A stretch of 35,560 nt of DNA from Baffinella frigidus (lineage: Eukaryota; Cryptophyceae; Cryptomonadales; Baffinellaceae): positions 870,258 to 905,817 of the forward strand of contig MU646384.1 in assembly GCA_026770585.1 (NCBI GenBank). The letters are read 5' to 3'. The notes beneath the pieces were generated by a model, which searched no databases, was not told the origin of the DNA, and was given only the letters and a program-made list of their open reading frames with translations. Of the stretch, positions 2,324-26,070 are shown piece after piece. The position numbers and the translations under genes are program-made. Numbering within the stretch: position 1 is the first letter of the stretch; each line of letters begins with the position of its first letter.

Positions 2324-3567
2324 GTGGCCGAGTGTGTACCACACGACGAAACACTCTGTGGTGTCTGCCTCTCCCCTTCTTACGAAAAGGACCGTCGAGT
2401 AGCATGCCACCATTTTTTTTGCTCGATTGCTGCAGACGTGTCTTTGATTTTGGATCTATTTTGGCTGATGTTTCGAAGGAGGGTGCGATTGAGTTTGTTG
2501 GCGTTGATATCCTTAGTCGCGCAAGCCCCCCCCCGGGTACACATGGTGGGCATGTTGGTTGTGATGCGGACAACTGAGCGTCTTCCTCGTGTGAGCAGGT
2601 TCTTGCCACGACGATGGGAAACTCAAAGATCAGATGAAAGAGGTCTTCGATCCTACTTCCCAAACCCTGAATCTAAAACCTAAACCTCGAACCCTACACC
2701 CGAAACCGTCAACTTCGTGCCTGAGCTTTCCACCCTCGATCCTGAATCTAACCCTCCACCTCAAACCCTACGTCCTAAACCCTGAACCCTAAACAACAAG
2801 CCTGCACCCTGAATCTGAACCGAAACCCCTGAACCCCTGAAACTTTAAACCCTATACCCCAAACCCCAAGCCCTAAGCACGAAACAATAGGTACCAAACA
2901 CTCAACCCTAAACCCTAAACCCTAAACCCTAAACCCTAAACCCTAAACCCTAAACCCTAAACCCTAAACCCTAAACCCTAAACCCTAAAACCTAAACCCA
3001 AAACCCGAAACCCGAAACCCGAAACCCGAAACCCGAAACCCAAAACCTTGAACCTTAAGACCCTGAATCATCTGCCCTGGATCTAGATTGTGAACCTCAA
3101 CCCCTAGACCCTGCACCCTCAAGCCTTAACAAAAAACTCTAAACCCTGAACCTCGAACCCTCTACCAACCCTCAACCGACATTTCGGTGGGGAGAAAATG
3201 TGGCGACTAGTTCCCAGTCGAACAAGGCCTCCTCGGGGGGGTATTCGTGCAGGCCATACCGGTTGAGATCCGAACAATCTACCGTTACGAGTAGTAACCG
3301 TGGTGATATCTGATTTCGAGTAGATGACTCTGTCAAGCATCGTGAGCTCTCGGGCATCCCCAGGAAACGGCCGTTTCCTGGCGCCGCAGCCTGTTTTCCA
3401 AAAACACAATTTTTCCTCTGTTTTCCCAGAACACGATTTTGAATGCGCTCCTCTTCAGTAGCCTCCCGGGAGGCAACACGCCATAACCTCTCGTGTTGCG
3501 CAGATGCTGTTGACCATGGAGACTCTGAAGCCCATCCACGGCCCGCCCCTGAAGGGGGAGTGTCCAC
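2324..3567 (+). CDS. Possible RING-type zinc-finger gene split by a CCCTAAA intron (tentative)
   Basis: At 2354-2413 the frame reads CGVC, then about 12 residues, then CHHFFC. This matches the first half of a RING finger (C-x2-C, then C-x-H-x2-C). Beyond the CCCTAAA array, at 3511, an AG acceptor (GTTGCGCAG) opens a frame that ends ECPLCR and a stop at 3565-3567. The CPxCR ending is typical of the last Cys pair of a RING E3 ligase. The middle Cys pair is not visible in either piece, so the intron boundaries are not settled and an extra exon may be missed. The link between the two pieces is an inference from strand, order and motif. No start codon was chosen. Confidence 0.3.
2655..3170 (+). 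repeat. CCCTAAA telomere-type array
   Basis: Degenerate heptamers surround a perfect core of about twelve CCCTAAA units at about 2906-2990, followed by a run of ACCCGAA variants at 3000-3040. The C-rich strand is the plus strand. The array is flanked by complex sequence on both sides, so it is interstitial and not a chromosome end in this assembly. Confidence 0.95.
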
Positions 3568-4189
3568 TCTGCCGATAGTGGGGGGAATGCACCGTTTATT
3601 CAACACACAGCACGATCGCGGAAAACTCAGGCTCAGTGCAGCACATTTCTGGCAAGTGGCGCGGGTGAAGGTGTACAGTACATTTAATCTATCGTAATTT
3701 TCGCACCGCGCGCTACATCTCGTGTGAGGGATGAGGGAGCATCCCGAGTTGTAGAGTAAGTGGATCGACTGCACGCGCTCCGTGTCTTGAGAGGCTGAAG
3801 AGGTGCGGCAGCGATGCCGCGGTCGGGTGCGAGATGTTCTCGACGGACAACTTCTCCAATAACCTGTTGGCGTCCGAGAAGGGCTGCTGAGAATACCCTT
3901 CCTCGACACGACGTCTGGGGTTGCAATAGGCACTCTGTTGGGGTGGCTGAAGAAGGGGTACAGAACATGTAAACTATTGTCATTCAAGGAGGGACGGTCT
4001 GATTCCGTCTTCAATTACATAGACAACACACCAGATTCTAAGACCCGAATTTAGTCTCGAAAACACAGTAGTTGTTAGTGTTGAGACTCTACACGTCAGA
4101 GTTGGGGCTTCCTGCAAAAGTGGCTCCTGAGTGAGTTGAACCCCAGATAAAATGTCCCCTTTACTGGTGGTGAGTTTTTGTGTTTAGGG
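3568..4189. other. Unassigned sequence with a diverged direct repeat
   Basis: No gene is recognised. The stretch around 3654-3698 and that around 3938-3985 share a diverged block (GAAGGTGTACAGTACAT versus GAAGGGGTACAGAACAT), suggesting an old duplication about 285 bp apart. A long minus-strand open frame (3172-4014) has the amino-acid composition of a chance ORF. Confidence 0.4.
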
Positions 4190-4521
4190 AAGGGTAGAGT
4201 GTTCCCGCGCGAATCGGGGTTTGGGGTTTGGGGGTTAGGAGTTTTGGGTTCAGGGTGCAGGGTTCAGGGTTCAGGGTGCAGGGTGCAGGGCTGAAGGTTT
4301 AGGGTTTAGGGTTTAGGGTTTAGGGTTTAGAATTCAGGGTTGAGGGTTTAGAGTTTAGGGTTTAGGGTGTGCGGGACCAGCACTGGAGTCGCGTAGCAGA
4401 GGTTTGGGGGTTTGGGTCCTCGGTCTGGGGTTCTGAGGTCTAGGGTTGGAGGGCTCTCTGACAGCAGGGGGGCTGTCTAGGGCCGTGACTTGTGTAAAGT
4501 CACTCCGCTTGGGCCTACATG

Positions 4522-4544
4522 GGGGATATCCCTGGATATCCCCA
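4522..4544. repeat. Short perfect hairpin inside the array
   Basis: GGGGATATCC, a short spacer, then GGATATCCCC forms a hairpin inside a non-heptamer island (about 4490-4660). The island carries no recognisable exon. Confidence 0.6.
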
Positions 4545-6468
4545 GAGGCTCTCGACCAGAACGGGGGTTAGGTAACAGCAGATCTGCAGCGCCATGGAAA
4601 ATTTGTCAAGATGCTTGTGCCCCAGCTTCCTCCTCCACCTGATTGATCAACTTCAAGATTTAGTGTTGAAGATTTGGGGTTGAGGGGTTGAGGGTTTGTG
4701 ATATAGAGATAAGGATGCAGGGTTTCAGGGTTTAGGCTGTAGGGTTTAGGATTCAGGGTTTAGGGTTTAGGGTTTGGGCGTTGAGGTTCAGGGTTCAGGG
4801 TTTGGGTCCAGGGTTTAGGGTCTAGGGTTTAGGAATGGTTCAGGGTTCAGGGTTCATGGTTTAGGGTTTAGGGTGTAGGGTCTATGGATTAGGGTTAAGG
4901 TTTCAGGGTTTGCGATGTAGAGTTTAAGGTTTAAGGTTTAGGGTTTAGGGTTTAGGGTTCTGGGTTGAGGGTTTAGGGTTCTGGGTTTAGGCTTTAGGGT
5001 TTGGTGTTGGGTTTCAGGGTTTAGGGTTTAGGGTTTAGGGTGTAGGGCTGAGGGTCTAGGGTTGGTGGTTTATGAATTATGATTTATCGTATAGGGTATA
5101 GGGTTTAGGGTTCAAGGTTTACAGGTTATGGGTTGGGGTTGAGGGTTGAGGGTTGAGGTTTCCAGGGTTTAGGGGTCTGGGTTTACGGTTCAGGGTTTAG
5201 GCTTGGGGGTTCAGTTTCAGGATCAAGTGTTGAAGATTTGGGGTTTGGGATCTAGAGTTTAGGATTTGGGTTTCAGAGTTGAGGGTGTTGAGGTCAAGTT
5301 TGAGGGTTGAGGGTTTAAGGTTTGGGGTTCTGGTTCAGGGCTTGAGGTTTAATGTTCAGGGCTTCAGGTTTAGTGTTTAGGAATTAGAAATGAGGGTTGA
5401 GGGTTGAGGGTTTAGGTTTCAGGGTTCAGGTTTCAGGGTTTAGAGTGTAAAGGTTTTTTTTTAGGATTTAGGGTTCAGGGGTTCGGATGTAGGGTTGAGG
5501 GCTTAGGGTTGAGGGTTTTCAGGGTTTCAGGGTCTAGGGCTAAGGGTTCAGGGTTCAGGGTTTGGGGTTTGGGGTCGAATGTTTAGGGTTCAAGGTCAAG
5601 GTTTTAGGATCTGGGATTGAGAGTTTATGGATTATGTTGCATGGTCCAGGATATAGGGTTGAGGGTTCATGGTTCATGGGTTATGGTTCAGTGTTTAAGG
5701 TTTGGGGTTTAGGTGTTAAGGTTTAGGGTTTAGGGTTTAGGGTTTAGGGTTAAGGGTTTAGGGTTCAGGCTCCATGGTTAATGGTCAAGGGTTTGGGGTT
5801 CAGGCTTTAGGGTTCAGTTTTGAAGGTTTAGGTTTTGGAATTCAGCGTTAAGTGTTGAGTGTTTAGGGTTTGGAGTTTAGGATTTTGTCAGGATTTAGGG
5901 ATCATGGGTTCTGGGGTAGGGTTTAGGGTTGAGGGTTTAGGGTTGTGGGTTGAAGGTTGAGGGTTCAGGGTATAGGAATTAAGGGTTCCGGTTGAGGGTT
6001 CAGGTTTTAGGGATTAGGGTTTTAGGGATTAAGGTTTTAGGGATTAGGGTTAGAGTTTAGGGTTTAGGGTTTAGGGTTTTGAGTTCATGGTTTAGGGTTT
6101 AGGGTTTAGGGTTCAGGGTTTGGGTTTAGGGTTTAGGGTTTAGGGTTTAGGGTTTAGGGTTTAGGGTTTAGGGTTTGGGATTGTTTTGGGATCAAGTGTT
6201 GAATGTTTGGGGTTTAGGGGTTAAGGTTTAGGGTTTAGGGTTTCGGGTTTAGGGTATAGGGTTTCGGGTTTCGGGTTTATGGGTCATGGTTCAGGGTTTA
6301 GGTTGTAGTGTGTTAGGTTTTGTTTTTAGGGTTTAGGGTTTGGGGTTTAGGTCTTAGGGTTTAGGGTTTTGGGTTTAGGGTTTGGGGTTAAGGTTTAGGG
6401 TTTCGGTTTCAGGATTTAGAGTTGAAGGTTGAGGGTTCAGGGTTTTAGAGTTTTGGGTCCAGGAGTAC

Positions 6469-6610
6469 CTCGGACTTGAGAACCTTCTCGGAGCCGCCGA
6501 GGTCCGCGAGGCACAGCGAGCTGCACACCTCCACGCCCATCTCCGCGTGGGCCTGCGCGAGCAAGAAGAGGAGCAGCGCGTGCGCGCGGGACGAGCGCTC
6601 GTTCATCGGT
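6469..6610 (-). CDS. Kinesin motor-domain exon, isolated in the heptamer array
   Basis: Read on the minus strand, this 142-nt block encodes the two nucleotide-sensing switches of a kinesin motor. NERSSRAH is the switch I signature (N-x-x-S-S-R-S/A-H). LADLGGSE is switch II (usually DLAGSE; Gly replaces Ala here). Spacing between them matches the family. The block has clean splice borders: CCCTAG at 6611-6616 as acceptor, itself part of a heptamer, and GAG/GTACTC as donor at 6468. Kinesins are microtubule motors of the cytoplasm. No P-loop exon (GQTGSGKT type) or later motor exons are visible anywhere in the array, so this is either one exon of a gene with very long heptamer introns or a stranded fragment. 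The frame is intact, which favours a live exon or a recent capture. Confidence 0.8.
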
Positions 6611-7109
6611 CTAGGGTAGAGGGTTTGGGGCTTAGGGTTCAGGGTTGAGGGTTTAGGGGTCAGGGTTTAGGGTTGAATGTTTGGGTTTCAGGGTTTAGGA
6701 TTTAGGTTTCAGGGTTCAACATTTAGGGTTTAGTGATTAGGGTACACGACTTAGGGTCTGGAATTTGGAGTTTAGTGTACACGGTTTAGGGTTTAGTGAT
6801 CAAGGTTTAGGGTTTAGGGTTTAGGGTGTAGTGATCAGGGTTGAGGATTAAGGGTTTAGTGTTTGGGGCTTAGGGATTAGGGTTCGGGGTTGAGGATTTG
6901 GGGTTCAGGGTTCAGGGTTAAGTGTTTAGTGTTTAGTGTTTAGGGTTAAGGGTCTGGGGTTTTGGGTTGAGGGTTGAGGGTTGATGGTTTATTAGGGTTC
7001 AGGTTTCACCGGTCAGGATTTACGGATTAGGGTTTAGGGCTCAGGGCTTAGGGTTTAGGGTTTAGGCTTTAGGGTTTAGAGTTTAGGGTTTAGGGTTTGA
7101 GGTTGAGGG

Positions 7110-7385
7110 TATCCCTTATGTGCCTGCGACGTCCTGAGACGTCAAAAGGCTCAAATGTCAACTTTGGCATTTTCTAATTAGGCCGCCTCTTGATGGAAAA
7201 TTATAAAAAAAACACCAGCTTGTCAGGCTCGCTAAGCTGAACAAATTGAGTAATTGGTGCTCAACGAATTGAGAAATTCCTGATTTATGAGACCCGGAAA
7301 ATCGTCCTCCGCTAAATTGGAATCCCTAGACCTGATTCCTGCTGAAAAAAAATGATCACGTACCTTTTTCGGCAGATAAGGGATA
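7110..7385. mobile_element. MITE-like DNA element, 276 bp
   Basis: An AT-rich island in the heptamer array is bounded by terminal inverted repeats. The left end is TATCCCTTATGTGCC and the right end, read in reverse, is TATCCCTTATCTGCC, a match of 14 of 15. There is no coding capacity. The TA at each tip could be a TA target duplication of the mariner type. The ends resemble those of the elements at 19400 and 23227 (ATCCCTnAAGTnGC), so they may share a transposase. Confidence 0.75.
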
Positions 7386-7446
7386 GGGTTTAGGGTCTAG
7401 GGTTGAGTGTTCAGGGTTGAGGGTAGGGTTGAGGGTTCAGAGGGTG

Positions 7447-7527
7447 CTGGGGCTACTAGCCCAGTAGGATCATCCACTTGCCCCCCATAGCCTCGTGAGG
7501 GGGAGTCTGTTGGGCTAGTAGCCCCAG
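7447..7527. mobile_element. Foldback element, 81 bp, with perfect 17-bp arms
   Basis: CTGGGGCTACTAGCCCA at 7447-7463 is exactly inverted at 7511-7527. The 47-bp centre contains a second weak stem (CCCCC/GGGGG). It sits as an island in the TTTAGGG array and has no coding capacity. Confidence 0.75.
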
Positions 7528-7791
7528 AGGGGTAGGGTCTAGGGGTTCGGTTTTAGGGTTCAGGATTTATGGTTTATGGTTGTAGGGTTTGGTGTTCAGG
7601 TTTTGGGTTTACGGTTTAGGGTTTACGGTTGAGGGTTTAGTGATCAGGGTTTAGGATTTAGATTTGAGTGTTTGGGGTTTAGGGTTTGGGGTTTGGGGAT
7701 TGGGGATTGGGGTTTGGTGTTGAGGATTCGGAGCCAGGTTTCAGAGTGTACAGTTTAAGAGTTTATTGTTTAGGGTCAGGGGTCTAGGGTT

Positions 7792-7839
7792 TTCCTACAT
7801 GTATAGGTACTTGTATTCCTACATGCATAGGTACTTGTA
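7792..7839. repeat. 24-bp tandem pair
   Basis: The unit TTCCTACATGTATAGGTACT plus TGTA occurs twice back to back with one base difference (GTATAGG versus GCATAGG). It starts a short non-heptamer island ending near 7895. Confidence 0.8.
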
Positions 7840-9230
7840 TTTATCCCATGCGGTGGGCGCCTTTGCGCCAGCGTGCAGCACAAGCTGTCCTCGTTTAAGG
7901 TTCATGCTATAGGGTTCAGGAAAAAAGGATTAGTGTTCAGAGATTAGGGTTTAGGGTTTATGGTTTAAGGTTTCATGTTTAGGGATCGGGATTTAGATTT
8001 TAGGGAGTGGGGTTTACGGTTTAGGGTGTAGGGTGTAGGATTTATATTCTAGGGTTTAGAGTTTGGGTTCAGGGTTTAGGGTTTAGGGTTTAGGTTTTGG
8101 AGTTTAGGGTTTAGGGTTTAGGGGTTAGGGTTTAGGGTTTTGGGTTTTGGGTTTAGGGTTTAGGGTTTAGGGTTTAGGGTTTAGGGTTAAGGGTTTATGG
8201 TTTAAGGTTCAGGGTTCAGCGTTTAGGGTTGATTTTTATTGTTATTTAAGGTTCGGGGTTTAGGGTTTAGGGTTCAGAGTTCAGAGTTGACCGTTTACAT
8301 TTTACGGTTTATGGTTCAGTGATTCTAGAGTGATTAGGGTTTACGAGTTAAGGTTGAGGGCTTAATGGTTTGGTCTAGGGTTTAAGGTTCAGCATTTAAT
8401 GTTCAGGTTTTTGGATTTAAGGTTTGGGGTTTGGGGTTCAGGGTTTACCGGTGACGGTTCAGGGGTTTGGAGTTTCTGGTCCAGGGTTTATGAAGGAGCA
8501 GTTCAGCTGGGAAATTGAGATTGGGGATTCAGGTTCTAGGGGTTAGGGTTGAGGGTTTAGAGTTTAGGGTTTAGGGTTAAGGGTTTAGGGTTTGGAGTTT
8601 AGGGTAGTGGGTTTAGTGATTAGGGTCCAGGGTTTAGGGTTCAGGGTTCAGTGTTCAGTTTTAGGGTTTAGGGTTTACAGTTTAGGGTTTAGGGTTTAGG
8701 GTGTAGGGCTTAGGGCGTGGGGCTTAGGGCTCAGGGCTTACAGTTTATGGTTTACGGTTTGGGGTTTAGTGATCAATGTTTTGGGGTCAGGGTTTAGTGT
8801 TTGAGGCTTGGGGATTGGGGTTTCTAGTTGAGGATTTAGGATTCAGAGTTTTGGGTATAGGATTCAGGGTTTAGGGTTTCGGGTTCAGGTTTTTGGGTTT
8901 ATTAGGATTTAGGTTTTAGGGATTATCGTTTAGGGTTTAGTGTTTAGGGTTTAGGGTTTAGGGTTCAATGTTTAGGGTTTAGGGTTTAGGGTGTAGGGTT
9001 TAGGAGTGAGGGTTTAGGGTCCATGGTTTAGGGTTTAGGGTTTAGGGTTTAGGGTTTAGGGTTTAGGGTTTAGGGTTTATGTGGGTAGTGAGGGTAGGAG
9101 CTATGCCATATGGCTCAGCTACCATGGCACTACGTATACGTATATATTTATACAGCGAGAGTAGACTGATACTGAAGGGTCATATACGACAGTCATATAC
9201 GAATCTATTTCGTGACTGGCGTCTCTTCAG

Positions 9231-9452
9231 GAAGCCCAAAGGTTGGAGCCGCAGCGCTTCCCTGTGCTTCTTCGCTCTCTCTCTGCCTGCCCGGTGTCGT
9301 CCGGAGGCATGGAGAAGAGCAGCGTCGCCTTGCCGGCGCTGCTGAAGGATGGGCGCGAGGGGCGCGCGAATCTGGTGCCTTGTCACGAAAGGATCCTGCT
9401 CTTTTTGACGGCTCAGAAGCAGGATGGCGCGGCCTTTCTCGTGACCGTTAAG
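9231..9452 (+). CDS. Orphan exon-like open frame of unknown function
   Basis: A GC-rich block opens after a good acceptor (GTCTCTTCAG at 9221-9230) and stays open for 74 codons to AAG/GTTTCA. It includes the stretch CHERILLFLTAQKQDGAAFL. The composition differs from the surrounding array and looks protein-coding. No family is recognised. The minus strand is also open here, so the strand is uncertain. If the plus frame is real, it is the only exon-like block whose coding strand reads TTTAGGG next to an array. Confidence 0.28.
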
Positions 9453-9904
9453 GTTTCAGGGGTTAGGGTTTAGGGTTTAGGGTTCAGGGTTTGGGGTTTA
9501 GGGTTCAGGGTTTATGGTTTGTGGTCTATGGTTTAGGGTCGAGGGTTTCGGGTTTCGGGTCCAGGGTTGCGGGTCTATGGTTTATGGTTTGGTGTTTATG
9601 GTTTGCGTTGTAGGGTTTAGGGTTCAGGTTGTGGTGTTGAGGGTTTAGGGTTGAGGGTTTGAGGTTTCCCAACCCTAGAGTTTAAGTTTTTCCCCTCTTC
9701 GATTTAGAGTTCAGTGATGCGAGTTTAGGGATTACAGTTACCGGTTTGTGGTTCAGTGTTGAGGGTTTACGGGTTACGGTTCAGGGCTTAGAGTTTTTGG
9801 TCTAGGGTTTAAGGTTCAGGATTTACTGTTCAGGTTTTTGGATTTAAGGTTTGGGGTTTGGGGTTCAGAGTTTACCGGTGACGGTTTAGGGTTGGGAGTT
9901 TTTG

Positions 9905-10135
9905 TTCTAAGGGTGCAAGAAAAGGGGGCTCGGTCCAGTCCGAGTAGATAGGACCGGGGAGCTCACCCGTAGATTACTCCCAACTCCTCAAGAGTGAGGT
10001 GGGCTGTGGCCTTCGATGTGAGTGTAAATAAAAGCACCAAAGAACCAAAATCTAGGGTTCAAGGTTTAGGGTCTAGGGTTGAGGTTTTAGGGTGTATGGT
10101 TTAGGGTTCAGGGTTCAGGGGTTTCAGTCGGTCTC
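9905..10135. other. Complex island and array end; nothing recognised
   Basis: A non-heptamer island at 9905-10040 contains an imperfect inverted repeat (CTCGGTCC near 9930 with GGACCGGGGAG near 9951). No exon or RNA gene was recognised. Heptamers resume at about 10051 and end near 10115. Confidence 0.4.
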
Positions 10136-10248
10136 TTAGTTACATGTGGTGTGACATGTGAGCTACACAAATTTGGTACGGTTCTGGATGCAACTTCTTG
10201 TCAACTTTTGCGAGGGTGGAGAAGCAGGGCTTTTGCCTAGGGACATAA

Positions 10249-11029: not shown

Positions 11030-14000
11030 ATGAGGTTTGCGATCTCTGCGGGGGGGCTAGGTGCGGCGGTGTTCGCGCTCCTCGTGCACTCTGCCGCGGC
11101 AAACACGCCGGCGACCAAGGGGGTGCACCCAGACCAGATAACGTGAGCCCCCCCCCCCTCGTTGTGCTCACCTTTACCCAACTCGCTGTTCTCAACGCTT
11201 CCACGGGCAGGCTCTACTCGGGTCCCGGAGACTTCGACTGCGCGGATGGGAGCGGCAAGATCTCCATGGCCCAGGTCAATGACGAGTACTGTGACTGCTC
11301 GGACGGCAGCGATGAGCCAGGGACGTCGGCATGCCAGAACGGAAAATTCTGGTGCAAGAACTTTCAGCACAGGGGGCTCTACCTGTTTTCCAGCAGGGTC
11401 AACGACGGTGTCTGCGGTGCGACGCATCCCATCCCGATATTCCGCTCTATCTGACTCCCCCATTTATTCCGTGTGCTCCGTGCTCTCTCTCGCATACATT
11501 TGTCATTCGTCCCATCACCATCCTTGCCAGATCCAGTGCCTAGCGCGGATGGCTGACCTTGGACGGGTCCGTCACCGCAGACTGCTGCGACGGCTCGGAT
11601 GAGCACAACGGGGTGGCGGTGTGCGAGGATCGGTGCGCGGAGGAAGGCCGCGAGATCCGCGAGGCCCTTGTCAAGAAGATCGACCTTCTGGAGCAGGTGC
11701 CTGCCCTCGCGCCGAAAAGCCTGGGCTGCTGCTGCTGCTGCGCAAGGCCTAGCTTCGTCACTGTCTATTTGGACGCACCAATTGATGAGCCAGGGCTCTT
11801 TCCCTCTGCACAGTTGACGAATTTGTACCCACACCCAGCATGGCAGCTTGAGAACCGTGTGTCAACCCGGGTGAGACAGAGCCAGACGGCAGTTGTGGAA
11901 CTGGGCGCGGCACTGGCAGGCAGTACTTACATTTTCTGGTGGCGTTTCGACGCTGATTCTACTGGGTGTGGCAGGGTATTCTGAAGCGGCCGGAATACGT
12001 GGAGCGAGCAACCTCGTTCAAGCAGGGCATCGAGACCAGAACGGTACCGCGACACCTCAGCTGCCGGCCAGCCAGCCAAGGCCCTGTTTCGCAGTCGCCT
12101 TCAAGAATTGCTCGTCTAGTGTGCGGTGATTTATTCTCGCAAGGATGGGCGATACCCGTAGTGGGGTTTGACAATCGCGCTTCTGGTGTGTACTGCTGTT
12201 GTCCCTCGAGGACGGGGTTCATCTCGACCCCCGGGGTCCATTGGCTGTGGTAGAGTATGAGGGGGGGCGAGAAAGTTTGACGGAGGGTGCGGTTGCGACA
12301 GGCGGAGTTGACCAAGACGATCCAGGAGACAGAGGAGAAGATGAACGAAAAGCAGAAAACCATCGACGAGCTCCAGAAGGTGCGCACCCGCGCCTCTCGC
12401 TCTCTTTCTCTCCACCGCGTCGACGCACAACCGACTGACCAGCCAGCAATGCAATCGCGTCTCCCAGCTCACGATTCATCACGGCGATGCAGCAGCCCCG
12501 GACAGCAGCCGGAAGCCAGAACCCCGCACCCCGATGTTGAAACTCCGCGCATCCTGCCACTCTGACCTGGTGGGTGCGGCGAGGGCAGGTAGTGGATGGG
12601 GAGAAGGAAGCGCGGGCGCCTGAGGAGGGGGAGAAGCGGAGGAGCGTTGAGGTTCGGCAGAAGCTGCGCCAGGACGTGCGAGACGCGCGCCGCGCTCATG
12701 AGCTGGCCGTCAAACACCAGGTCTCCCTTCCTCTCTTGCCGCCTTGCTGCCTCCCTACCTTGCACCTTCCAGCATTGCTGCCGTGTACCTCCCTTCTACC
12801 TTGCTGCGGTGTACCTGACCGTGTACCACCCGCGCTTGGGGTCCCGATATCGCGTGTCGCGCGACGTATCTGCCATGCAGCGCCTGTGCAGACACCGTGG
12901 CGTGCCCTCTGCCACACAGCGTCGCTGGTGCCACCAGTGCGGTGTTGCCATAGCGGGGATGGGGGCAGGTTTCACGTGGTTCAGACACGCACGGCTGGGT
13001 CACGCCTGTGCTTCCGAAACGGTGTTCGGGGCTGAGAAGCTGCGGCGGGCTGAGAGGACCCGTGACTCGACCACGCGGCAACGCGTCTGAGGCCCCGAGT
13101 GCGTTGGCGTGGGGTGCAGTTGGAGGAGGTGGCGCGGGCAGCGCAGCTTGTCAAGGACGCCGAGCAGGCGCCGCCGCAGGGGGAGGGGGGGGGGGAGGAG
13201 GTGCACGCTGCTCAGGACGAGTCAGGCGCCGCTGAGGCGAGCATTGTTCCCGACCAGACCTCTCTCTCTTTCTCACCGGATATTGCGCCGGACCGAACGT
13301 TGCTCTGTATCTCACTGGATGTTTCTCGTTCGCACACCGGATGATGCGCCCATGCCTGGGCTCTGCATCACGCGCACCCCATCGGATCCGCTCGCGGCTC
13401 TGGCAAGTGGGTGGTCGGCTCGCTGAGGCGGCATGCTAGCAACGGGCGCTGGCGAGTGCCTCGCTCCACCAGCCCTCCGACACCAAGTGTTCCGATTGTT
13501 TGGGTCTGCCGGATTTGCACCAAGGGTTGACCCCGGTACGAATCGGTGGTCGTTCAAATGTTGAAAACACGTGGCATGCGATGGCTAGTGGCGGGTCCCG
13601 CACGCGGGTGGCTGCGTCTGCCCGTAGGCGTGGGGCTGTATGCACAGGTTCTGATGAAATGCACCATGTGCACAGGCGGAGCCTGTTGCGCCCCACTCTG
13701 TGGATCCGGAACAGATGGTTGCGGAGGAGGGGGAGGATGCCGAGAGGCGCGATGCCGAGTTGCGGGAGGAGGAGGGGGGGGAGGGGGATGGGGGGGAGGA
13801 CGTGGATCAGGACGATGGGGAGGGGGAGGGGCTGGAAAGTGGGTACGATCAGGCGGGTGAGGATGGGAGGGTGTCTGCTGAGGACGAGGAGGAACGCAGG
13901 TGCCCGCCTCCTGCACCCTCCAGCCTGCCTCTCTCTCTCTCTCGCGCTCTCTTTATCTCTCTCTCTCTCTCTTTCCGTCTCTCGCTCGCCCTCTCATTTT

Positions 14001-17000: not shown

Positions 17001-18160
17001 CGAGATGCCAGAGCGATGTCGGAGTGGTGCCAGGCGTGGTGACGGAGTGGTTGTCTTTCCCGCGTTGGCAGTGCTTCAGCCAGCAGGTGCAGCAGTACAC
17101 GTACGAGGTATGCATGTTCCGCAACGCGCATCAGAAGGATGGCGCCGCCACAAACATCGGGTAACCCCCGATCTCATGGGGAAACGGTTTTCATTTAAAA
17201 CGTTATGGCAATGAAATTTACTACGCGCAATGAGTTTTACTAGTAATGTTAAAGCGTTCGTGTAGTAATTTTCATTGAATCCAATGGTTTCAAATCAAAA
17301 CCGTTTCCTACGAGATCCCGACGGTGCTCCGCCGCCCCTCTCTTTGCAAACACGCCAACAGACTCACGGAATCACCGCGCCGCACTGTCTACTCTCCCCT
17401 GGTTGATCTGGTCTCCTCAAAATAAGGAGACCAGAAGTTGATTCTCGTGTTCTGTGGTACACATCCATCAACGTGAAAACGATGAGACGACAGCTCGACC
17501 ATATGCCAGGATGCGACTGCCTCAGATGGCTCCACAAGTTGACCTGTTGCAGCGCGCGCTGGCTCTGACAGCCGCGAGTGGCCTGGCAGAAACTGGGGGA
17601 ACTGGAACGACGCGAGCGAGGGTCGGCCGTATAGCGTGATGCATTTCACGAATGGGGGGTCTTGCTGGAACGGGCCTAGCCGAACCCTCAAGGTCACGCT
17701 GCAGTGTGGCATCGACGAGGTGCGTCCCGTCTACCCCCTGCTGGCGGTGACTCTTTGCTCCCCGGTGTTTGGTTGACGGAGCAGGGGCAGATTCAGTTGT
17801 TGCGTGCCCTTGCTGCTGTGCCCCCCCCTCGGCAGTAACCGCAGCGTCCCGTCGCACTCTACCACATGACATCGTGCAGCGCACGCACACTGCGCTGCTG
17901 CCTAGACACACTCGCCTTTTTCCTAGACACACTCGCCTGCTTCCAAGACACACGTCTGCTGCATTCGCGGCAGCGCGCCCTACAGCTGGCGGAGCAGACT
18001 CAGCTGACTCAGCTTCCGCGCGCGGCAGTTTGTCGTGTCGGTGCAGGAGCCGAACAAGTGCGTCTACGAGATGGAATTCCAAACGCCGCTCGCGTGCGGC
18101 GTCGAAGAAGTGGAGAAGGCTCGCCACGAACTGCAGACCCAATTCGGGGGCAGGGCATAG
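11030..18160 (+). CDS. PRKCSH: Glucosidase II beta subunit (13 exons, 507 aa)
   Basis: Regulatory subunit of ER glucosidase II, which trims glucose from N-glycans; the beta subunit binds mannose and anchors the catalytic alpha subunit. Exons: 11030-11142, 11211-11416, 11581-11696, 11975-12043, 12302-12379, 12589-12720, 13120-13200, 13715-13899, 14380-14494, 14853-14930, 17072-17160, 17590-17719, 18029-18160. All phases join. A signal peptide (about 1-25) precedes two LDL-receptor-A-like Cys/Asp blocks (CDCSDGSDEPG at 65-75; DCCDGSDE at 107-114), a charged coiled coil (about 125-260), an acidic stretch (266-330) and an MRH lectin domain (392-488) with C392, C405, C446, C460, C475, C487, R452, Y477 and E480. 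Length is close to the human protein. Exon 7 could instead end at 13245. The C-terminus has no HDEL-type signal. Intron 10 (2,141 nt) is mostly CCCTAAA repeat. Confidence 0.93.
14504..14545. repeat. Small G-rich heptamer-like patch in intron 9
   Basis: GGGGTGAGGGGTGAGGGCTT followed by GGGTTTAGGGG lies just after exon 9. It is the only G-rich patch on the coding strand of this gene and is very short. Confidence 0.5.
14985..16790 (+). repeat. CCCTAAA array filling intron 10, with assembly gap
   Basis: About 1.8 kb of CCCTAAA and variants (CCCTGAA, CCATAAA, CCCCAAA) lies between exons 10 and 11 of the glucosidase II beta gene. A run of 26 N at 16265-16290 marks an assembly gap within perfect units, so the true length is unknown. 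A block of about 365 bp is duplicated at an offset of about 467 bp (15650-16015 and 16117-16482), with the same degenerate spellings in both copies. Confidence 0.95.
16265..16290. other. Assembly gap (26 N)
   Basis: Unresolved bases inside perfect CCCTAAA units. The real array may be much longer than shown, which would lengthen intron 10 of the host gene. Confidence 1.
17170..17317. mobile_element. AT-rich foldback/MITE, 148 bp, in intron 11
   Basis: Near-perfect palindrome: GATCTCATGGGGAAACGGTT at the left end pairs with the right end ending CCGTTTCCTACGAGATC, and an inner pair (CAATGAAATTTACTAC / GTAGTAATTTTCATTG) extends the stem almost to the centre. It begins only 10 nt after the 5' splice site of exon 11 and is far more AT-rich than the gene. 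Confidence 0.8.
17899..17960. repeat. About 21-bp imperfect tandem repeat in intron 12
   Basis: CCTAGACACACTCGCCTTTT, CCTAGACACACTCGCCTGCT and CCAAGACACACGTCTGCTGC follow each other within the last intron of the glucosidase II beta gene. Confidence 0.75.
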
Positions 18161-18402: not shown

Positions 18403-21400
18403 CTAGAACCCCTGGAAACAGTCTTCGTACCCCGGCAGGCGCGCCCCCCCCCTCGCCGCGGCAGCCAACGCGCTCTGCCCCCCCGCCGCGCCCCCCTCCC
18501 CCGCCGGAGCCACCGCATCCCAGATGCACGAGACGGGGAGACAGAGGGGGGCGGAGGCGGAGGCGCGGGGGGGGATGGCGTCCCACTGCGGGACAAGAGG
18601 CTCCATCGGCGCTTGCCAGGAGTAGCGAGTCGCCCCCTGCCAGCGGAACAGGGCACGCCGCCGTTGATCCATCACGTATCTCGACTGCGGAATGCTGAGT
18701 GTAAGAGGACACATCGGGGGAGAAGCTTGCCTCGGCCGATATGTGCCAGCGCGCTTCAGTAGTGGGGTACCTCGCTCACAAGAAACTACCCCCCCCCCTA
18801 GGACCCCCATAGCGCCCTAGGCATAGCCCTATTGTAGGGCCCGAGGGGGTGGCGCTTTCTTATGAGCGAGGTACCCCTGTAGCGCGCTTCAGTAGTGGGG
18901 AGGGCTCGCACCTGGACGGGGAAAGTGCGGGAGGCGCCCGGGCCGTCTTCGGCCGAGCCGCGGATCTCGCACTCTTTCCAGAAAGCTACCATGAGTGTGA
19001 TTCGCCGCCGCTCCGGGTGCTCGCTGCCGAGGTGTGTGTAGAGGGGTTAGGGAGCAGGGCACGGCGCGCACACCGAGGTTGGGATCCAGTGGGGGGCAAG
19101 AGCAAGTGAGCGCAAGATATTCTGCAGAAAATGGCAGTATGGTCTGCAGGTAAGTACTTTACAATAATTACGTAAGTGTCGATTCTTTACACGGTGTGTG
19201 GGGAGTTGGGGCTGGAACCTAAAGGAGGCCCCTGGGATGACGCCGTGGAGGACTTTGCCGTCGAAAGCCACGAACCGATTCGTCCTGCGAGAGACGAGAG
19301 AGCTTTCATCGCAGATCGAAAACACCATGGCCGCCATGCAGTCGCTCGACCCCCACTCGCCCCGGGGGTGTTCAGCCGAAAACGTTGGTGGTAGATGCTA
19401 TCCCTTAAGTGGCGAGTAGGCCCATACGCCCTACCGTAGGGCCCTAGGACCTACCTAGGACCTGTCGGGGGTCAATTTTGACCTAGCCACTTCAGGGATT
19501 TTACAGATCGAAACCAACATGGCCACCATGCGTCGAGCGCCGCCACGCACGCACGCCCGCAGCCGCTCGGTCCCCACTCGTCCCGGGGGTGTTCAGCCAA
19601 AAAAAATGTTGGTAGATGCTATTGTACTTTTCGGGTCAGCGCGGATTTTGGATCGGGGTCGGGGAGTCGGGAAAAATCGAAAAAATCGAAAAAGGGCTCT
19701 AGTATTTGTGACATATTATGGGTGGGGGGTGCATCTTGTCATCATATCAATGCATAAGATAGCATAAAACTTTAGATGGACGCACCAATTATCGAGATTT
19801 TCATTTCCCGACACCCCGACCCGACCTCGAGAAAATCCGCGCTGACCCGAAAAGTACAATATAGGGGTTACCCTGGTCCAATACCGGATGCAGAATACAA
19901 TGAATTCGGTGAGTTTCTCCGTATTAGTGTGCATGCCCTGCGCAGGTCATGGGCCTCTGCCGGAACCAGAGAGAGGGTGTAGGTCCAATGTCTGCTCGTT
20001 GCTTCACACCCAAGTCTCTTTCTCCCTCAGGGTGCAGGCGCTGGGGTTTCCAGGTGGGTGCTGAGGTGGTTCTCGGGATTCGGGGTGGGTGGTGTTGAGG
20101 AGCAGGCCGTGAAGGAGGGAGGGAGAGAGGGAGGGAGGGAGGGAGCAGGACGTGGGAAAGACGAGCCAGCCTTGCCCCGCGAGCTTCGCATCCTCCACCC
20201 GCTGATTCGTAATCAGCGTCGGCCCGCCCGTCCCCTCCGACAGATACATGACACTCGTCGCAATCGGGTTCCGCACGCCGCCGAGCCCCTCATCATCCGA
20301 GTCGAAGTGCAGCTGGTGCCCGGAGGGGTGGGGGCGGCAGTGGGCCCACCACTCGGCGCGCGTGGCGTCCTTGACAGCCGGGAAGCGCACCTCTGCGAGA
20401 CGCTGCAGGTGGCGGATCACCTGCGATGCCGCGCGCTAGTCAGCTGCCGGACGCAATCAATGGCAGCTGCGCCGGTGAGCTGCCGAGCAGCAACCGTCCG
20501 CTGCTGCGCTCAGAGAGAAACGTGCGTTTATCACGCATCAATCATTAATAGGGTAACGGCCTGAAAATGGGGTAGTTAGGCCTACGGCATTGCCTAGGAC
20601 CTCCTACCGTAGGCCGAGACTTTTTGGTCCTAGGATCCCTCGGCCTACGGTAGGAGGTCCTAGGCAATGCCGTATGCCTAACGACCCCATTTGCAGGCCG
20701 TTAGCCTATGAACATGGCCACCATATGTTCCCTTGCTCTCTGCTCGGCAGCGGACCACGGGAGGCACGTGCGGGGAGGCGGACCTGTTCAATCCCGTTGC
20801 GAGGAGGGGTCCGCTGCTCCGCTCTGAGAGAAACACAGTACGATTTCTACGCATCGAAACCAAGCTCAGCGGACCTGTTCCATGCCGTTGCGAGGAGGCG
20901 TGCCGTCCAGCGTGTGCATGTACGAGAAGTAGCCCCGCTCTGGTGCGTAGTAGTCATGCTCCGTCCTGCAAGGGTTTAGGGGTTAGGGGTTAGGGGTTAT
21001 GTTTAGGGTTTAGGGGTTGGGGTGCAGGGTGTAGGGTGTGGGGTTTAGGGTGAGGGGTTAGGGGTTAGGCTCTAGGGGTCCCTCCTTCACCCCCGTACCA
21101 CCCGCTCGAGGCTGCACTTCGGCATTCAGAGTTTATGGTTTATGGTTTATGGTTTACGGTGTATGGTTTATGGTTTATGGTTTATGGTTTATGGTGAAGG
21201 GTTTATGGTGTACGGTGTATGGTTTATGGTGTATGGTTTATGGTGGACGGAAAACGGGACTCTATAACCTCAACCCTAAACCCTAGACAACACAGATCAA
21301 GGAAATGCACGCAAGACGAAATCGGAGTGAGTCGCACCAGTAGAGCCCCCTTGGCTTGAACACTTCTTGAAGCATAGCTAGCATGTCCTGCGGGAAGGCC

Positions 21401-21873
21401 TGGTCGAATATGGCGACGATCCGATCGCGCTCTTCCGCGTCATCCCCCGCATCGGGACTCCCCACCCCACGCAACACTTGTGCCGACAACCGAAAGCTGA
21501 AGCCGCCTTCCTGCAGAAGAGCCTCTGCTTCTGCGTCGCGCCCGTTTTGGCAGAGCAGGAGCGCCAGTTTGCTGAGAGCTTTTTCGAGCGTGGCAACCTC
21601 GGGCGCGGACTGAGCTGCGCGAGCGACGCTAATGGCCTCGACGAGCAGCGTCTCAGCTCGTTGCAAGTCGCTCTCGTTGGCAGCCGAGTCCCACACTGCC
21701 TGTGCTAGCGCCACTCGTGCCTCCGCTGCCAAGGATGTCGAAGCCACCGCCTGCTCGAGAATTGGGAGGGCCGCGGCAGCGTCGCCCGTCCTCTGCACGG
21801 ACCGGGCCTCCTCCAGCAGCCCCCGGCAGTGCTTCAGCGCCTTGAAGTCGGCCATCGACATGCGCCCAGCCAT
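18403..21873 (-). CDS. TPR-like plus 2-oxoglutarate/Fe(II) oxygenase (P4H-like), 6 exons, 435 aa
   Basis: Non-haem iron dioxygenase of the prolyl 4-hydroxylase-like class. Exons on the minus strand: 21873-21338, 20965-20875, 20420-20152, 19284-19219, 19023-18912, 18636-18403. All phases join and the total is exactly 436 codons. The first ATG sits in a GCAACATGG context. Residues 10-130 are helical with TPR-like spacing (LEEARSVQRTGDAAAALPIL). The catalytic part reads YFSYMHTL, then HFDSD with the Fe ligands H247 and D249, then VLHGVIPG with the distal ligand H312, then RRRITLMVAFW with Arg for 2-oxoglutarate. The C-terminus is a low-complexity tail ending in YEDCFQGF. No signal peptide is visible, so a cytosolic or nuclear site is likely. 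The substrate is unknown. The exon 3 donor (AC/GTCCTG) is weak but is the only one that restores frame. Confidence 0.92.
18764..18877. mobile_element. Foldback element, 114 bp (GGGGTACCTCGCTCA family), in intron 5 of the oxygenase gene
   Basis: The ends GGGGTACCTCGCTCACAAG and CTTATGAGCGAGGTACCCC are near-perfect inverted repeats. A 20-bp direct repeat (AGCGCGCTTCAGTAGTGGGG) occurs at 18748-18767 and again at 18881-18900, just outside the right end. A second member with the same ends is at 23567-23684. Confidence 0.85.
19311..19621. repeat. Tandem duplication of a roughly 90-120 bp segment, each copy ending at a MITE
   Basis: The segments 19311-19401 and 19505-19621 share CAGATCGAAA at the left and TCCCGGGGGTGTTCAGCC near the right, ending GTAGATGCTAT. 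The first is followed at once by the MITE at 19400, the second by the MITE at 19620. Both lie in intron 3 of the oxygenase gene. Confidence 0.8.
19400..19499. mobile_element. MITE A, 100 bp (ATCCCTnAAGTGGC ends)
   Basis: ATCCCTTAAGTGGC at the left is inverted as GCCACTTCAGGGAT at the right (13 of 14). Internal motifs GTCAATTTTGACC and CGCCCTACCGTAGGGCC recur in inverted orientation in the element at 23227-23324, which is therefore a second copy of the same family. Noncoding. Confidence 0.85.
19620..19861. mobile_element. MITE/foldback element, 242 bp, probable TA target
   Basis: The left end TATTGTACTTTTCGGGTCAG, continuing CGCGGATTTT, is inverted at the right end as AAAATCCGCGCTGACCCGAA followed by AAGTACAATA. 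An inner pair (GGTCGGG with CCCGACC) continues the stem. TA flanks both tips, as in mariner-like elements. It lies in intron 3 of the oxygenase gene and has no recognisable coding capacity. Confidence 0.85.
20104..20148. repeat. GGGA-rich simple repeat
   Basis: GGAGGGAGGGAGAGAGGGAG and similar units lie directly downstream (minus strand) of the weak exon 3 donor of the oxygenase gene, giving a C/T-rich tract in the pre-mRNA. Confidence 0.8.
20548..20709. mobile_element. 162-bp near-perfect hairpin element in intron 2 of the oxygenase gene
   Basis: Arms of about 67 bp pair almost completely. The inner stem GGCCTACGGCATTGCCTAGG (20579 onward) pairs with CCTAGGCAATGCCGTATGCC (ending 20678), around a 26-bp loop containing TCCTAGGATCC. 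The outer ends are ATAGGGTAACGGCC and GGCCGTTAGCCTAT. Noncoding. Confidence 0.85.
20971..21290 (-). repeat. Heptamer array in intron 1 of the oxygenase gene
   Basis: The plus strand reads TTTAGGGG/TTAGGGG at 20971-21070, then a complex piece (about 21075-21125), then a homogenised TTTATGG/TGTATGG array (21128-21245). On the coding (minus) strand these read CCCTAAA and CCATAAA. The 3' splice site of intron 1 is built directly onto the array edge (CCCTAAACCCTTGCAG). Confidence 0.9.
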
Positions 21874-23207: not shown

Positions 23208-23500
23208 GTACAGGGATACCTCGCTTATCCCTCAAGTAGCCAGGGGGTCAAAATTGACCCCCCCCAGGTCCTAGGCTTGCCATCGGGCCCTGCGGTAGGG
23301 CGTATGAGCCTACTCGCCACGGATATGAACACCCTTGCTCGATGGGTCGGTCGGTCGCCGTCTTCTGAAATGAGTGCAAGCGGGTTAAATGAATATCGCG
23401 TGTGTTCGCCCCGCTGGTACTAAATTTACGAGCACGCAGTGGTCGATTCCGTTCCGCATTCTTTAAGTTACGAGTTCTTGTACACGAGGTATCCCTGTAC
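23208..23500. mobile_element. Outer element with perfect 16-bp inverted ends, hosting MITE B
   Basis: GTACAGGGATACCTCG at 23208-23223 is perfectly inverted at 23485-23500. The MITE at 23227-23324 sits just inside the left end, so it probably inserted into this element. The end sequence is related to the GGGGTACCTCGCTCA family at 18764 and 23567. Confidence 0.7.
23227..23324. mobile_element. MITE B, 98 bp, inverted copy of MITE A
   Basis: Begins ATCCCTCAAGTAGCCAGG and contains GGGTCAAAATTGACCC, then GTAGGGCGTATGAGCCTACT and CGCCAC. Read in reverse it matches the element at 19400-19499 along its length, with a shortened right end. Two copies in opposite orientation in one 4-kb stretch show the family has moved. 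Confidence 0.8.
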
Positions 23501-23530
23501 CCCATGAGCGGCAAGACCCCAGGTGAGGAC
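23501..23530 (+). repeat. 30-bp dispersed block, first copy
   Basis: CCCATGAGCGGCAAGACCCC plus AGGTGAGGAC. The same 30 bases with two changes occur at 33472-33501. The block contains an ATG and a CAG/GTGAGG that looks like a 5' splice site. Confidence 0.7.
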
Positions 23531-23566
23531 GCGCAGGAAGTACAGTCATCCGCAGGTGTGCCTACA

Positions 23567-23684
23567 GGGGTACCTCACTCATAAGAAACCACGCCCCCCT
23601 AGCTAGGACCCTACAGTAGGCCTATGCCTAGGGCCCTACGGTGTTCCTAGGGGAGGGGGCGGTTTCTTGTGAGCGAGGTACCCC
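23567..23684. mobile_element. Foldback element, 118 bp (GGGGTACCTCGCTCA family)
   Basis: GGGGTACCTCACTCATAAG at the left and CTTGTGAGCGAGGTACCCC at the right; inner CCTAGG-rich stems pair further. It is the same family as 18764-18877. Just outside the right end GGAGGCCTAAGTG is repeated twice (about 23686-23698 and 23711-23723). Confidence 0.85.
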
Positions 23685-23782
23685 GTGGAGGCCTAAGTGA
23701 ATCTACTGCGGAGGCCTAAGTGGCGTCCTCATAACCGTGCGTCCTTAAATACCCGTAGAGCCTAGATACCCACAACGCTCCA

Positions 23783-24013
23783 GCCGCACGCGCCGACTCC
23801 ACGTTCCGCGCCTTGGAGGCGTGCCGCGTCGAGACCGCGGGGATGCTCTCACTTGCTCATCTCAGCGGGAGTCTTGGCCACGATATTCAGCGCGTGGAGG
23901 CCCGCCTGCCGGTCGGAACCCAACCACCGTCACTCGATGCGTCACCGCTCAGAAAGGGCCCTCTCCTCGCTGCAGGACCTGCTCCCGTTCCTGAACCCGA
24001 AGCTAAGCACTAG
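23783..24013 (+). CDS. Unassigned open frame, possible terminal exon
   Basis: A frame opens after CGCTCCAG and runs to TAG at 24011-24013. Its first part (STFRALEACRVETAGMLSLA followed by HLSGSLGHDIQRVEARL) has a helical, heptad-like pattern that faintly recalls Q-SNARE or other coiled-coil helices. The rest is Pro-rich. No family can be named and the start is not determined. It may be split by an intron after RLP (GTCGG). Confidence 0.22.
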   Translation, partial: AARADSTFRALEACRVETAGMLSLAHLSGSLGHDIQRVEARLPVGTQPPSLDASPLRKGPLLAAGPAPVPEPEAKH

Positions 24014-24224
24014 CCCAGCGAAGAGAAGAATCCTTCATCTTGGAGGCAATTCCCTGTGATTTGTACAAGGGGTTGCCGATTTCCGGCGACACCTTGGGAC
24101 AAATCCAAGCGCAAATTCAAACTTGTCAAGGTTTTTCGCTTTGGAGGGGACAGCGCAGCGCTGGTTCAGGCCCGCGCTGTCCTCCAGTGTGGGGGGCAAT
24201 CCCACAAGGGCTCAGCAGTGAGAT

Positions 24225-25276
24225 TTGGGGTTGAGGGTTTAGGGTGTAGGGTTGAGGGTGTAGGGTTGAGGGTTTGGGGTGCAGGGTTGAAGGTTGAGGG
24301 TTTAGGGTGTAGGGTTTGGGGATTTGGGTTGAGGGTTTAGAGTTTAGGTTTTAGGGTTGAGGGTTGAGGGTTGAGAGTTTAGGGTTTGGGGTTCACGGTC
24401 TAGGGTTCAAGGTTTAGGTTAGGGTTGAGGGTTTAGGGTCTGGGGTTCAAGTTTGAGGGTTGAGGGTTGAGGGTTGAGGGTTGGGGGCTTAGGGCCTAGG
24501 GTGCAGGGTGCAGGGTGCAGGGTTTAGGGTTTGGGGTTTGGGGTTTGGGGTGTGTGGGTGCGGGGATAGTGTTTAAAGTTTAGCGTTTACGTTTTAGTGC
24601 TGAGGGTTAAGAGTGTGGGGTTCAGGGTTTAGGGTTTAGGGGTCAGGACTCACGGTGGTTCAGGGTGCAGGGTTTAAGGTCTACGGTCTAGGGTCCAGAG
24701 TCTCCGGTTTAGGGTATGGGGTCTAGGTTCTAGGGTCTAGTGTCTAGGGTCTCGGGTCTAGGGTCTAGGGTAGTGTCGCCGACGAGTACCAGCGAAGGCT
24801 ACCAATGAGTTGTTGAGCACCAGCGAAGGATGTGTCAGGCTAGAGGAAGTTTTGACCGTTTTTTACACCAACAAAGTGACAGGTTAGAGGCAGTTTTGAC
24901 CTGTTTGTTTGTTGATTTTTTGTTAAAACGGACCCGCACACCAGCCTGTTTCGGTGTTCAACAAAAAAATGGTACTTATGAAACTGGCTCATTGGTTCTT
25001 GTCGGCCACGCTAGTCTAGGGTCTAGGGGCTAGGGTCTAGGGCACCGGATTCAGGGTAAAGGGTTCAGGTTTCATGGTCTGGGATTTGGGGTTCAGGGTT
25101 TAGGATTTGGGGTTAAGGGTTTGGGATTTAAGGTTTAGGGTGCGGGGTTTGGGGCTTAGGGTGTTTAGGGTTCAGGGTTCAGGGTTCAGGGTGCCAGGAT
25201 CAGGGTGCAGGGTTGAGGGTTTAGGGTTGAGGGTTGAGGGTTGAGGGTTGAGGGTTGGGGGTTGAGGGTTCAGGGT

Positions 25277-25308
<32 letters not shown>

Positions 25309-26070
25309 GGTTTCAGTTTTGGAGGTTCAGGGTTCAGAATTCACTTTTCAGGGCTCAGGGTTTAGGGTTGAGGGTTGAGGGTTCAGTGTTCATTGTTTAG
25401 GGTGCAGGGTTCAGGTTTCGGGGTTCTGTGTTTTGGGTGTAAGGTTCAGGGTTCAGGGTTTAGGGTTTGGGGTTTTGAGGGTTATGGGTTGAGGTTTGAG
25501 GGAATAGGATAGGGTAAAGGGTATAGGGTTTAGGGTTTGGGGTTTAGAGTTTAGGGTCCAGGGATCAGGGTGCAGGGTTCAGGATTCAGGGTTTAGGGTT
25601 CAGGGTTCGGGGTTCAGGGTTCATGTTTCAGGTTTCAGGGTTCAGGGTTCAGAGTTCACTTTTCAGGGTTTAGGGTTTAGGATTTAGGGTTGAGGGTTCA
25701 GTGTTCATGGTTTGGGGTCCAGGGTTCAGGTTTCGGGGTTCTGGGTTTCGGGTGTAAGGTTCAGGGTTCAGGATTCAGGGTTCATGTTTTAGGGTTTTTG
25801 GTTAAGTGTGTAGGGTTGAGGGTTGCGGGTTGCGGGTATAGGGTATAGAGTATAGGGTTTAGGTTTTGGGTTTCACGGTTGAGGGTTGAGGGTTCAGGGT
25901 TAGAGTTTAGGGTTCAGGGTTTGCGGTTTTGAGTTCAGGGTTCAGGGTTTAGGGATTAGGGCTTAGGGTTTCGTGTGCATGGTTTAGGGTGCAGGTGTTA
26001 GATTTGATGGTTTGGTTGAGGGTTTACGATTTAGGGTTTATTCAACACGCTCAACCAAACACGCTAAACT
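24225..26070 (-). repeat. Second large TTTAGGG array (about 1.85 kb)
   Basis: Heptamers on the plus strand read TTTAGGG, TTGAGGG, TTCAGGG and TCTAGGG; the minus strand reads CCCTAAA. Local sub-arrays are dominated by one spelling each: TTGAGGG at about 25209-25310, TCTAGGG at about 24720-24770. It is interrupted by the element at 24771-25013. It lies downstream of the minus-strand BolA gene. Confidence 0.95.
24771..25013. mobile_element. MITE-like element, 243 bp, in the array
   Basis: The left end TAGTGTCGCCGACGAGTACCA and the reversed right end beginning TAGCGTGGCCGACAAGAACC match at about 17 of 21 positions. Inside, GTCAGGCTAGAGGAAGTTTT and GACAGGTTAGAGGCAGTTTT form an imperfect tandem pair. 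The composition is AT-richer than the surroundings and it has no coding capacity. Confidence 0.7.

Follow-up and report, generated by a model that had tools for sequence, protein, structure and literature searches.

Degenerate arrays of a telomere-type heptamer lie between exons of unrelated genes in the cryptophyte Baffinella frigidus, and they are oriented with a strong bias such that the sense strand of the gene reads CCCTAAA. The stretch analysed, called the window below, comprises 35,560 nucleotides of eukaryotic nuclear DNA with 55.7% GC, positions 870258-905817 of the 925545-base contig MU646384.1 (C82) in a 382-Mb assembly of 1364 contigs (GCA_026770585.1). The gene-linked bias of these telomere-repeat introns is strong and well supported in the sample examined; it is a bias and not a law. 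Splicing is the best candidate for its cause. With a probability of about 0.5, judged from sequence, we favour the reading that telomeric-repeat insertions have turned into spliceosomal introns or parts of introns, and that the strand rule is what a survivorship filter on splicing would leave behind.

Arrays inside genes read CCCTAAA on the sense strand

The original prediction, made from the letters of the window, had held that arrays follow the coding strand and that genes read CCCTAAA, never TTTAGGG. Nine genes with located exons were available for this question, and seven of them carry arrays, 13 in total, with exons of the same gene on both sides, as expected of spliceosomal introns; the border dinucleotides were read by eye for two, the BolA gene of the window and a kinesin gene in stretch L049. 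One heptamer is thereby common to introns of seven of the nine unrelated genes, the kind of sharing that characterises introners. The sense strand reads CCCTAAA in 11 of the 13 arrays. Counted by telomeric 6-mer hits, 1323 in all, this orientation has 1290 and the other 33, and CCCTAAA is the majority sense orientation in all seven array-bearing genes. When the three window genes are left out, six of eight arrays remain concordant (385 hits versus 33). The word "never" therefore does not stand, since two intronic arrays outside the window read TTTAGGG on the sense strand, as judged from exon placement:

L033:4993-5056, sense TTTAGGG: array in an intron of the release factor RF3 gene
L034:6703-6834, sense TTTAGGG: array in an intron of a methyltransferase gene, forming an inverted pair with the CCCTAAA arm ahead of it

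The clearest host in the window is the glucosidase II beta gene on the plus strand, in which Pfam matches to PF12999 and PF13015 (E = 3.7e-22 and 1.2e-11) flank the array on both sides. The array occupies most of intron 14931-17071, as had been predicted.

11030-14930, plus strand: 5' exons of glucosidase II beta, nine hand-placed stretches with PF12999 on two around 11230-11680 (Pfam, coding score)
14945-16779, plus strand: array of CCCTAAA type, sense CCCTAAA (Pfam on both sides, array mapping)
17072-18136, plus strand: 3' exons of glucosidase II beta (PF13015 above and PF07915 below the cut-off, hand placement)

On the minus strand, three joined stretches match the BolA protein UVI31+ (E = 7.3e-17), which is the best match in the Protein Data Bank (PDB); the search gives this name only, and we presume it to be a plastid UVI31+. 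The gene and its minus-strand CCCTAAA were correctly foreseen, while the statement that the gene is followed by an array was too weak. Because the C-terminal exon lies at 23852-23905 and the prior exon ends at 26181, the arrays at 24234-26040 fall within the last BolA intron, the borders of which read GT-AG by eye.

23852-23905, minus strand: C-terminal BolA exon (LHALNIVAKTPAEMSK, then stop), with GCAG directly before it (joined-exon match)
24234-24771, minus strand: array in the last BolA intron, sense CCCTAAA (array mapping)
25017-26040, minus strand: second array block in the same intron, 23906-26180 (array mapping)
26181-26261, minus strand: BolA exon ending ahead of a gtgcgc donor (joined-exon match)
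26756-26860, minus strand: N-terminal BolA exon (joined-exon match)

The third host is a minus-strand gene at 19230-21873 with coding signal on either side of a small array. It had been called an oxygenase; the strand and the flanking coding signal held up, and the name did not, since Pfam gave only tetratricopeptide repeat (TPR) matches below the cut-off for this gene, and a PDB search allowing E up to 10 gave no match.

20971-21240, minus strand: small array in intron 20956-21351 of the gene with weak TPR matches (array mapping, coding score)

The flip of array orientation with gene orientation recurs within single 10-kb stretches (L033, L034, and L035), which favours the gene over the direction of replication as the driver. 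A codon model was trained on 27 hand-placed exons (1099 codons, third-position GC content 0.82) and found 25 of the 27 when they were held out; among the 20 scoring at least 12, the strand was right in 18. With this model the coding strand was called beside 50 arrays outside the window, stretches L048 and L049 being excluded, at a score of at least 12 within 1 kb and with low-complexity segments dropped. The arrays divided into 24 concordant, 4 discordant, and 22 without a coding call, so that the rule extends beyond the window as a strong bias (24 of 28 called arrays) and not in its absolute form. With low-complexity segments kept in, the numbers were 25 concordant and 5 discordant. At a score of at least 10 within 500 bp, 26 arrays were concordant and 3 discordant. 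Over twelve settings the concordant share ranged from 78% (31 of 40) to 94% (16 of 17).

The sample comprised 17 stretches from the surroundings of the window and from contig C1, of which L031, L032, and L039 are wholly or nearly all N, and three of 30 heavily overlapping short array loci on C1. Stretches L048 (contig C101) and L049 (contig C2) came from a list of 45 kinesin matches and are two of 13 kinesin stretches first selected; the choice was based on the presence of exons of the same gene on either side and preceded the search for arrays. Genes confirmed above Pfam cut-offs in these loci encode RF3, a methyltransferase, and a cyclophilin, and a pseudouridine synthase match lies below the cut-off. 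The searches give the family only, and we read the methyltransferase as NDUFAF5-like and the cyclophilin as a presumed PPIL3.

Array ends adjoin splice-site words

Genome-wide, an acceptor-like array ending, CCCTAAACCCTAAACC followed by AGG, occurs 229 + 221 = 450 times on the two strands, whereas the permuted endings are rare, with 7 + 10 = 17 for GAG and 18 + 14 = 32 for GGA. In local sequence CCAGG, CCGAG, and CCGGA occur 470, 324, and 258 times, so that word frequency accounts for less than two-fold of the AGG excess. The kinesin intron of L049 is one of the 450 endings (C2:1535925). At the other end, the donor-like AGGTC-N{0,12}-(CCCTAAA)2 is found 155 + 211 = 366 times and its counterpart with GAGTC 35 + 41 = 76 times, against a local word ratio of 329:191. 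From the two excesses we infer that many arrays, read on the CCCTAAA strand, begin after a donor-like word and end at an acceptor-like one. Among the causes put forward in the original prediction, namely selection against G-rich transcripts, a use of the repeats in splicing, and insertion tied to transcription, the link to splicing is the best supported, by virtue of these array ends.

A few arrays are flanked by direct repeats

In L049 a 220-bp array splits a kinesin motor exon, and the 10-bp word GGCACGAGCC stands on either side of it. Once the array and one copy of GGCACGAGCC are removed, the rejoined exon reads as an open frame, and its peptide can be aligned to KIF3B with no gap (E = 4.9e-8). 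Taken as an intron, the array would have GC-AG borders, as read by eye. Two more arrays have exact flanking repeats, of 21 bp at L041:9689-9898 and of 11 bp at L029:1499-1605, the latter longer by eye if mismatches are allowed. Of 64 arrays in total, 58 have clean flanks, and 3 of these 58 show exact direct repeats of at least 10 bp (10-21 bp) near both ends, compared with 0 of 2100 permuted pairs. A wider search within 100 bp gave scores of at least 11 for 6 of 64 arrays and for 0.8% of permuted pairs; some of these matches are tandem duplications or low-complexity sequence and not target repeats. A few arrays thus look like insertions into coding sequence, and are predicted to be spliced out now.

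The insertions at L049:1604-1852 and L029:1499-1605 are unrelated, and GGCACGA is common to both insertion points, by chance or by site preference.

A proposed splicing filter as the source of the strand bias

The favoured sequence of events would begin with telomeric repeats entering chromosomal DNA at staggered double-strand breaks, so that each insertion would be flanked by two direct copies of its target; the 3 of 58 arrays above support this step, and the repeats would be put in by telomerase or by end joining of telomeric fragments. Where a transcribed gene is hit, the insertion would be tolerated only when the spliceosome removes it. A perfect (CCCTAAA)n holds neither AG nor GT and would serve as an inert C-rich intron body, so that the AG and GT of the flanks or of the target duplication could be used without competition. 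The (TTTAGGG)n strand holds AG and GT in each unit, and this content is the putative cause of its scarcity. Survivors would be mostly CCCTAAA-sense, often running from AGGT to CAGG, and would decay with age.

The composition of 64 arrays is in line with this asymmetry. Per 100 nt, AG occurs 1.26 times and GT 0.59 times on the CCCTAAA strand, compared with 10.95 and 13.71 times on the TTTAGGG strand. Quadruplex-type motifs take up 29.9% of the array sequence on the latter and 0.0% on the former. A filter on splicing and a filter on quadruplexes would therefore both favour the CCCTAAA sense.

The quadruplex figures speak for the alternative in which G-rich UUUAGGG RNA or R-loops are selected against, TTTAGGG-sense arrays are lost or deleted, and splicing is incidental. 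This alternative predicts the same sense bias, but not that arrays should end on CAGG and AGGT, and the orientation effect measured on vertebrate repeats in a yeast intron assay is the opposite one, in the parts of that study available (PMC9272169). We consider it unlikely, though the best placed of the rivals; our preference for the splicing filter comes from the genome-wide counts, in which splice-site words and array ends fall together.

Less probable again is an insertion that is itself oriented, with no selection involved: transcription would expose one strand through a nick or R-loop, and telomerase would extend mainly the 3' end of the template strand, so that the coding strand would carry CCCTAAA from the outset. 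On the opposite strand the CC-AGG ending reads CCTGG and then TTTAGGG, which places GG in the register that telomerase priming would require, and an exposed in-register GG is described for a horse insertion in passages of PMC7215372. The permuted GAG gives CTCGG, in which GG is likewise in register, yet the counts are 17 and 450, and donor-like words are enriched at the opposite array end too.

Improbable to a like degree is a spread of the arrays along with introns already present, or through segmental or tandem duplication of exon-intron units, orientation being copied from few original insertions. In its favour, degenerate exon copies are interspersed with the exons of L048 (by eye), longer direct duplications flank the arrays of L012 and L047, and the glucosidase array contains repeated blocks (by eye). 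Against it, the genes that carry arrays are unrelated, as are the array flanks, and the 10-bp target repeat in the conserved exon of L049 is clean.

Several observations weigh against the splicing filter itself. Besides the two TTTAGGG-sense arrays among the 13, shuffled flanks lean concordant too (136 versus 89 in 20 sets), presumably because base composition is itself strand-informative; tested against this baseline, the real 26 of 31 gave p = 0.009. The codon model called one L049 exon, beside the array, on the wrong strand when that exon was held out. A target repeat of 10 bp is absent from 55 of 58 arrays, and in two of the three arrays that have one no homologue confirms the frame. Donor and acceptor motifs within 25 nt of the array ends showed no clear sense excess in 58 arrays, and CAGG placed 2-14 nt past CCCTAAA units was found locally 2 times, versus 0-3 for permuted words, so that the acceptor excess rests on a single exact register. 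The 450 endings could reflect a priming preference of telomerase for ends like CCTGG, and some of them stand close together and may be copies. The wrong-way word, AGGTC before (TTTAGGG)2, has a raw count of 148 + 171 = 319; the rows listed are mostly array-internal variants by eye, and the end-word counts are consequently no measure of how many TTTAGGG-sense introns exist. In the yeast assay of PMC9272169, as far as its available passages go, CCCTAA-sense repeats were more inhibitory than TTAGGG-sense ones. Finally, avoidance of AG in the changes within units was considered and rejected: A5>G, A6>G, and A7>G number 167, 37, and 28 per 1550 units in putatively genic arrays and 43, 2, and 3 per 478 in arrays without nearby coding signal, AG-creating changes being commoner, not rarer, in the former.

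Local tests of donor words before arrays and of codon-periodic words beside them were confounded by array composition. A simple pyrimidine preference was discarded as a cause, as non-array intron-like sequence has more C than G (0.296/0.270) and more T than A (0.233/0.201), but CCCTAAA has more A than T.

A bolder proposal, to which we give clearly less credence than to the splicing filter, is that in this lineage telomerase acts as an intron factory on a genome scale, healing breaks in transcribed exons by adding telomere repeats, with the spliceosome making introns of the CCCTAAA-sense ones. If this were true, telomere maintenance would feed intron gain, and the strand rule would be its signature. 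The splicing filter, if correct, would mean a source of new introns with unmistakable raw material, and, since such a filter treats the two strands of a single simple repeat differently, what cryptic splice sites cost could be measured genome-wide.

Other arrays and genes

Arrays in the window read CCCTAAA on the plus strand at 2662-3041 and 14945-16779, and TTTAGGG on the plus strand in blocks within 4182-10124, at 20971-21240, and in blocks within 24234-26040. All are degenerate. A pure 28-mer of the heptamer occurs 15790 + 14831 times on the two strands of the genome and its reversed control word 1 + 1 times, so that the arrays are not peculiar to the window. As tandem repeats of a telomere-type unit inside a contig, they correspond to interstitial telomeric sequences (ITS), which lie away from chromosome ends. 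The pure 28-mer array is also present in nine IMG/VR stretches (L050-L058).

Arrays also surround a kinesin-like exon on the minus strand (Pfam E = 2.3e-5; 24.0 bits, below the curated cut-off of 29.3), which a second profile search listed again below its cut-off. The expected closeness of the arrays to both exon ends was borne out, but not that they are intronic. A second kinesin exon was looked for within the window and not found, and the arrays beside the exon were accordingly left out of the intronic counts.

4691-6445, minus strand: array adjoining the kinesin-like exon on its downstream side, minus strand reading CCCTAAA (array mapping)
6469-6603, minus strand: kinesin-like motor exon, each end no more than about 10 nt away from array sequence (Pfam below cut-off)
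6612-7098, minus strand: array directly upstream of this exon, CCCTAAA on minus (array mapping)
7384-9079, minus strand: further upstream array blocks, CCCTAAA on minus, candidate members of the gene only (array mapping)
2662-3041, plus strand: CCCTAAA-type array with no identified gene (array mapping, Pfam search)
4182-4447, minus strand: array with CCCTAAA on minus and no identified gene (array mapping)
9463-9893, minus strand: array blocks beside an unverified plus-strand frame, 9306-9434 (array mapping, coding score)

The frame near 9306-9434 is a possible TTTAGGG-sense counter-example with a coding score of 15.6, and a search for a homologue found none. A RING gene proposed near 2655 had no Pfam match at E <= 0.01, and the names RING gene and oxygenase were dropped, profile and PDB searches having given no support.

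In the C101 kinesin gene, L048:1600-3550 holds degenerate exon copies between intact ones, for example near 1662-1730, 1796-1945, 3211-3276, and 3447-3542 (by eye). In L012, repeated exon-like units (TRKS...NV) border the arrays, and the gene there seems to have internal repeats. Convergent array pairs, a CCCTAAA arm followed by a short spacer and a TTTAGGG arm, are seen at L034:6167-6834 and L047:4630-5072 and resemble inverted duplications.

The RF3 gene is of bacterial type and occupies L033:245-5893 with about nine predicted exons in a eukaryotic genome. Its relatives among the matches listed (the best 120 of 8000 scored) begin with five unnamed JGI/ENA proteins at 61-67% identity, followed by cyanobacterial or unnamed ones, the named ones being cyanobacterial. 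This pattern would fit a plastid-bearing alga, and the product is probably plastid-targeted.

Elsewhere in the window, positions 1-95 carry a short tandem repeat of 29 bp in 3.3 copies, and a 24-bp tandem repeat of 4.9 copies at 29224-29340 lies inside a strongly coding-like plus-strand stretch, 28959-29432, for which a Pfam search gave no match. A THAP4-type heme-binding (nitrobindin-like) exon is located at 33959-34120 on the plus strand (Pfam E = 7e-10).

Comparison with known systems

Among the matches listed from open-licence papers, searched by titles and the starts of abstracts, none concerned introns made of telomere repeats that follow the strand of the gene. Seven mechanisms of intron gain are set out in a review that lacks the string "telomer" in the text available (PMC3443670). 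Intron gain in Daphnia pulex is similar in that new introns carry 4-12 bp direct repeats of the adjacent exon end, with staggered breaks; it differs in that "telomer" occurs 0 times in the study and that the passages available give no strand rule (PMC4202315). Introners are known in several algae and dinoflagellates (PMC7789003, PMC12730881, in part). Those of Micromonas, Aureococcus, and Amoebophrya resemble the arrays in being repetitive, intron-making sequence found genome-wide with direct repeats at exon-intron borders; they form transposon-like families with inverted repeats, according to the passages available, whereas the unit here is a telomere-type heptamer (PMC7789003). A "telomere-like intron class with a strand rule", as the original prediction phrased it, is a fair description of the arrays if the word "never" is left aside.

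In the yeast reporter with telomeric repeats in a URA3 intron, intronic repeats likewise affect expression according to orientation, but as far as the available passages show it is the CCCTAA sense that is more harmful there, and the CCCTAAA sense that is common here (PMC9272169). The insertion of telomeric repeats at breaks, occasionally with target duplication, is known in mammals from the parts seen of PMC7215372, PMC2246262, and the review PMC6410037. Mammalian short ITS are likewise tandem arrays of telomere units inside chromosomes, with target duplication in a minority, 3 of 66 loci in the horse (PMC7215372 and PMC2246262, in part). Human ITS differ, in the passages available, in that none lies in coding exons and the intronic share fits random insertion (PMC7215372). 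The arrays described here occur in very large numbers, show an orientation bias that goes with the strand of the gene, and have splice-site words at their borders. The effect of intronic ITS on splicing is named in a passage of PMC7215372 as interesting to test, and it is on this question of intronic telomeric repeats and splicing that the present finding bears.

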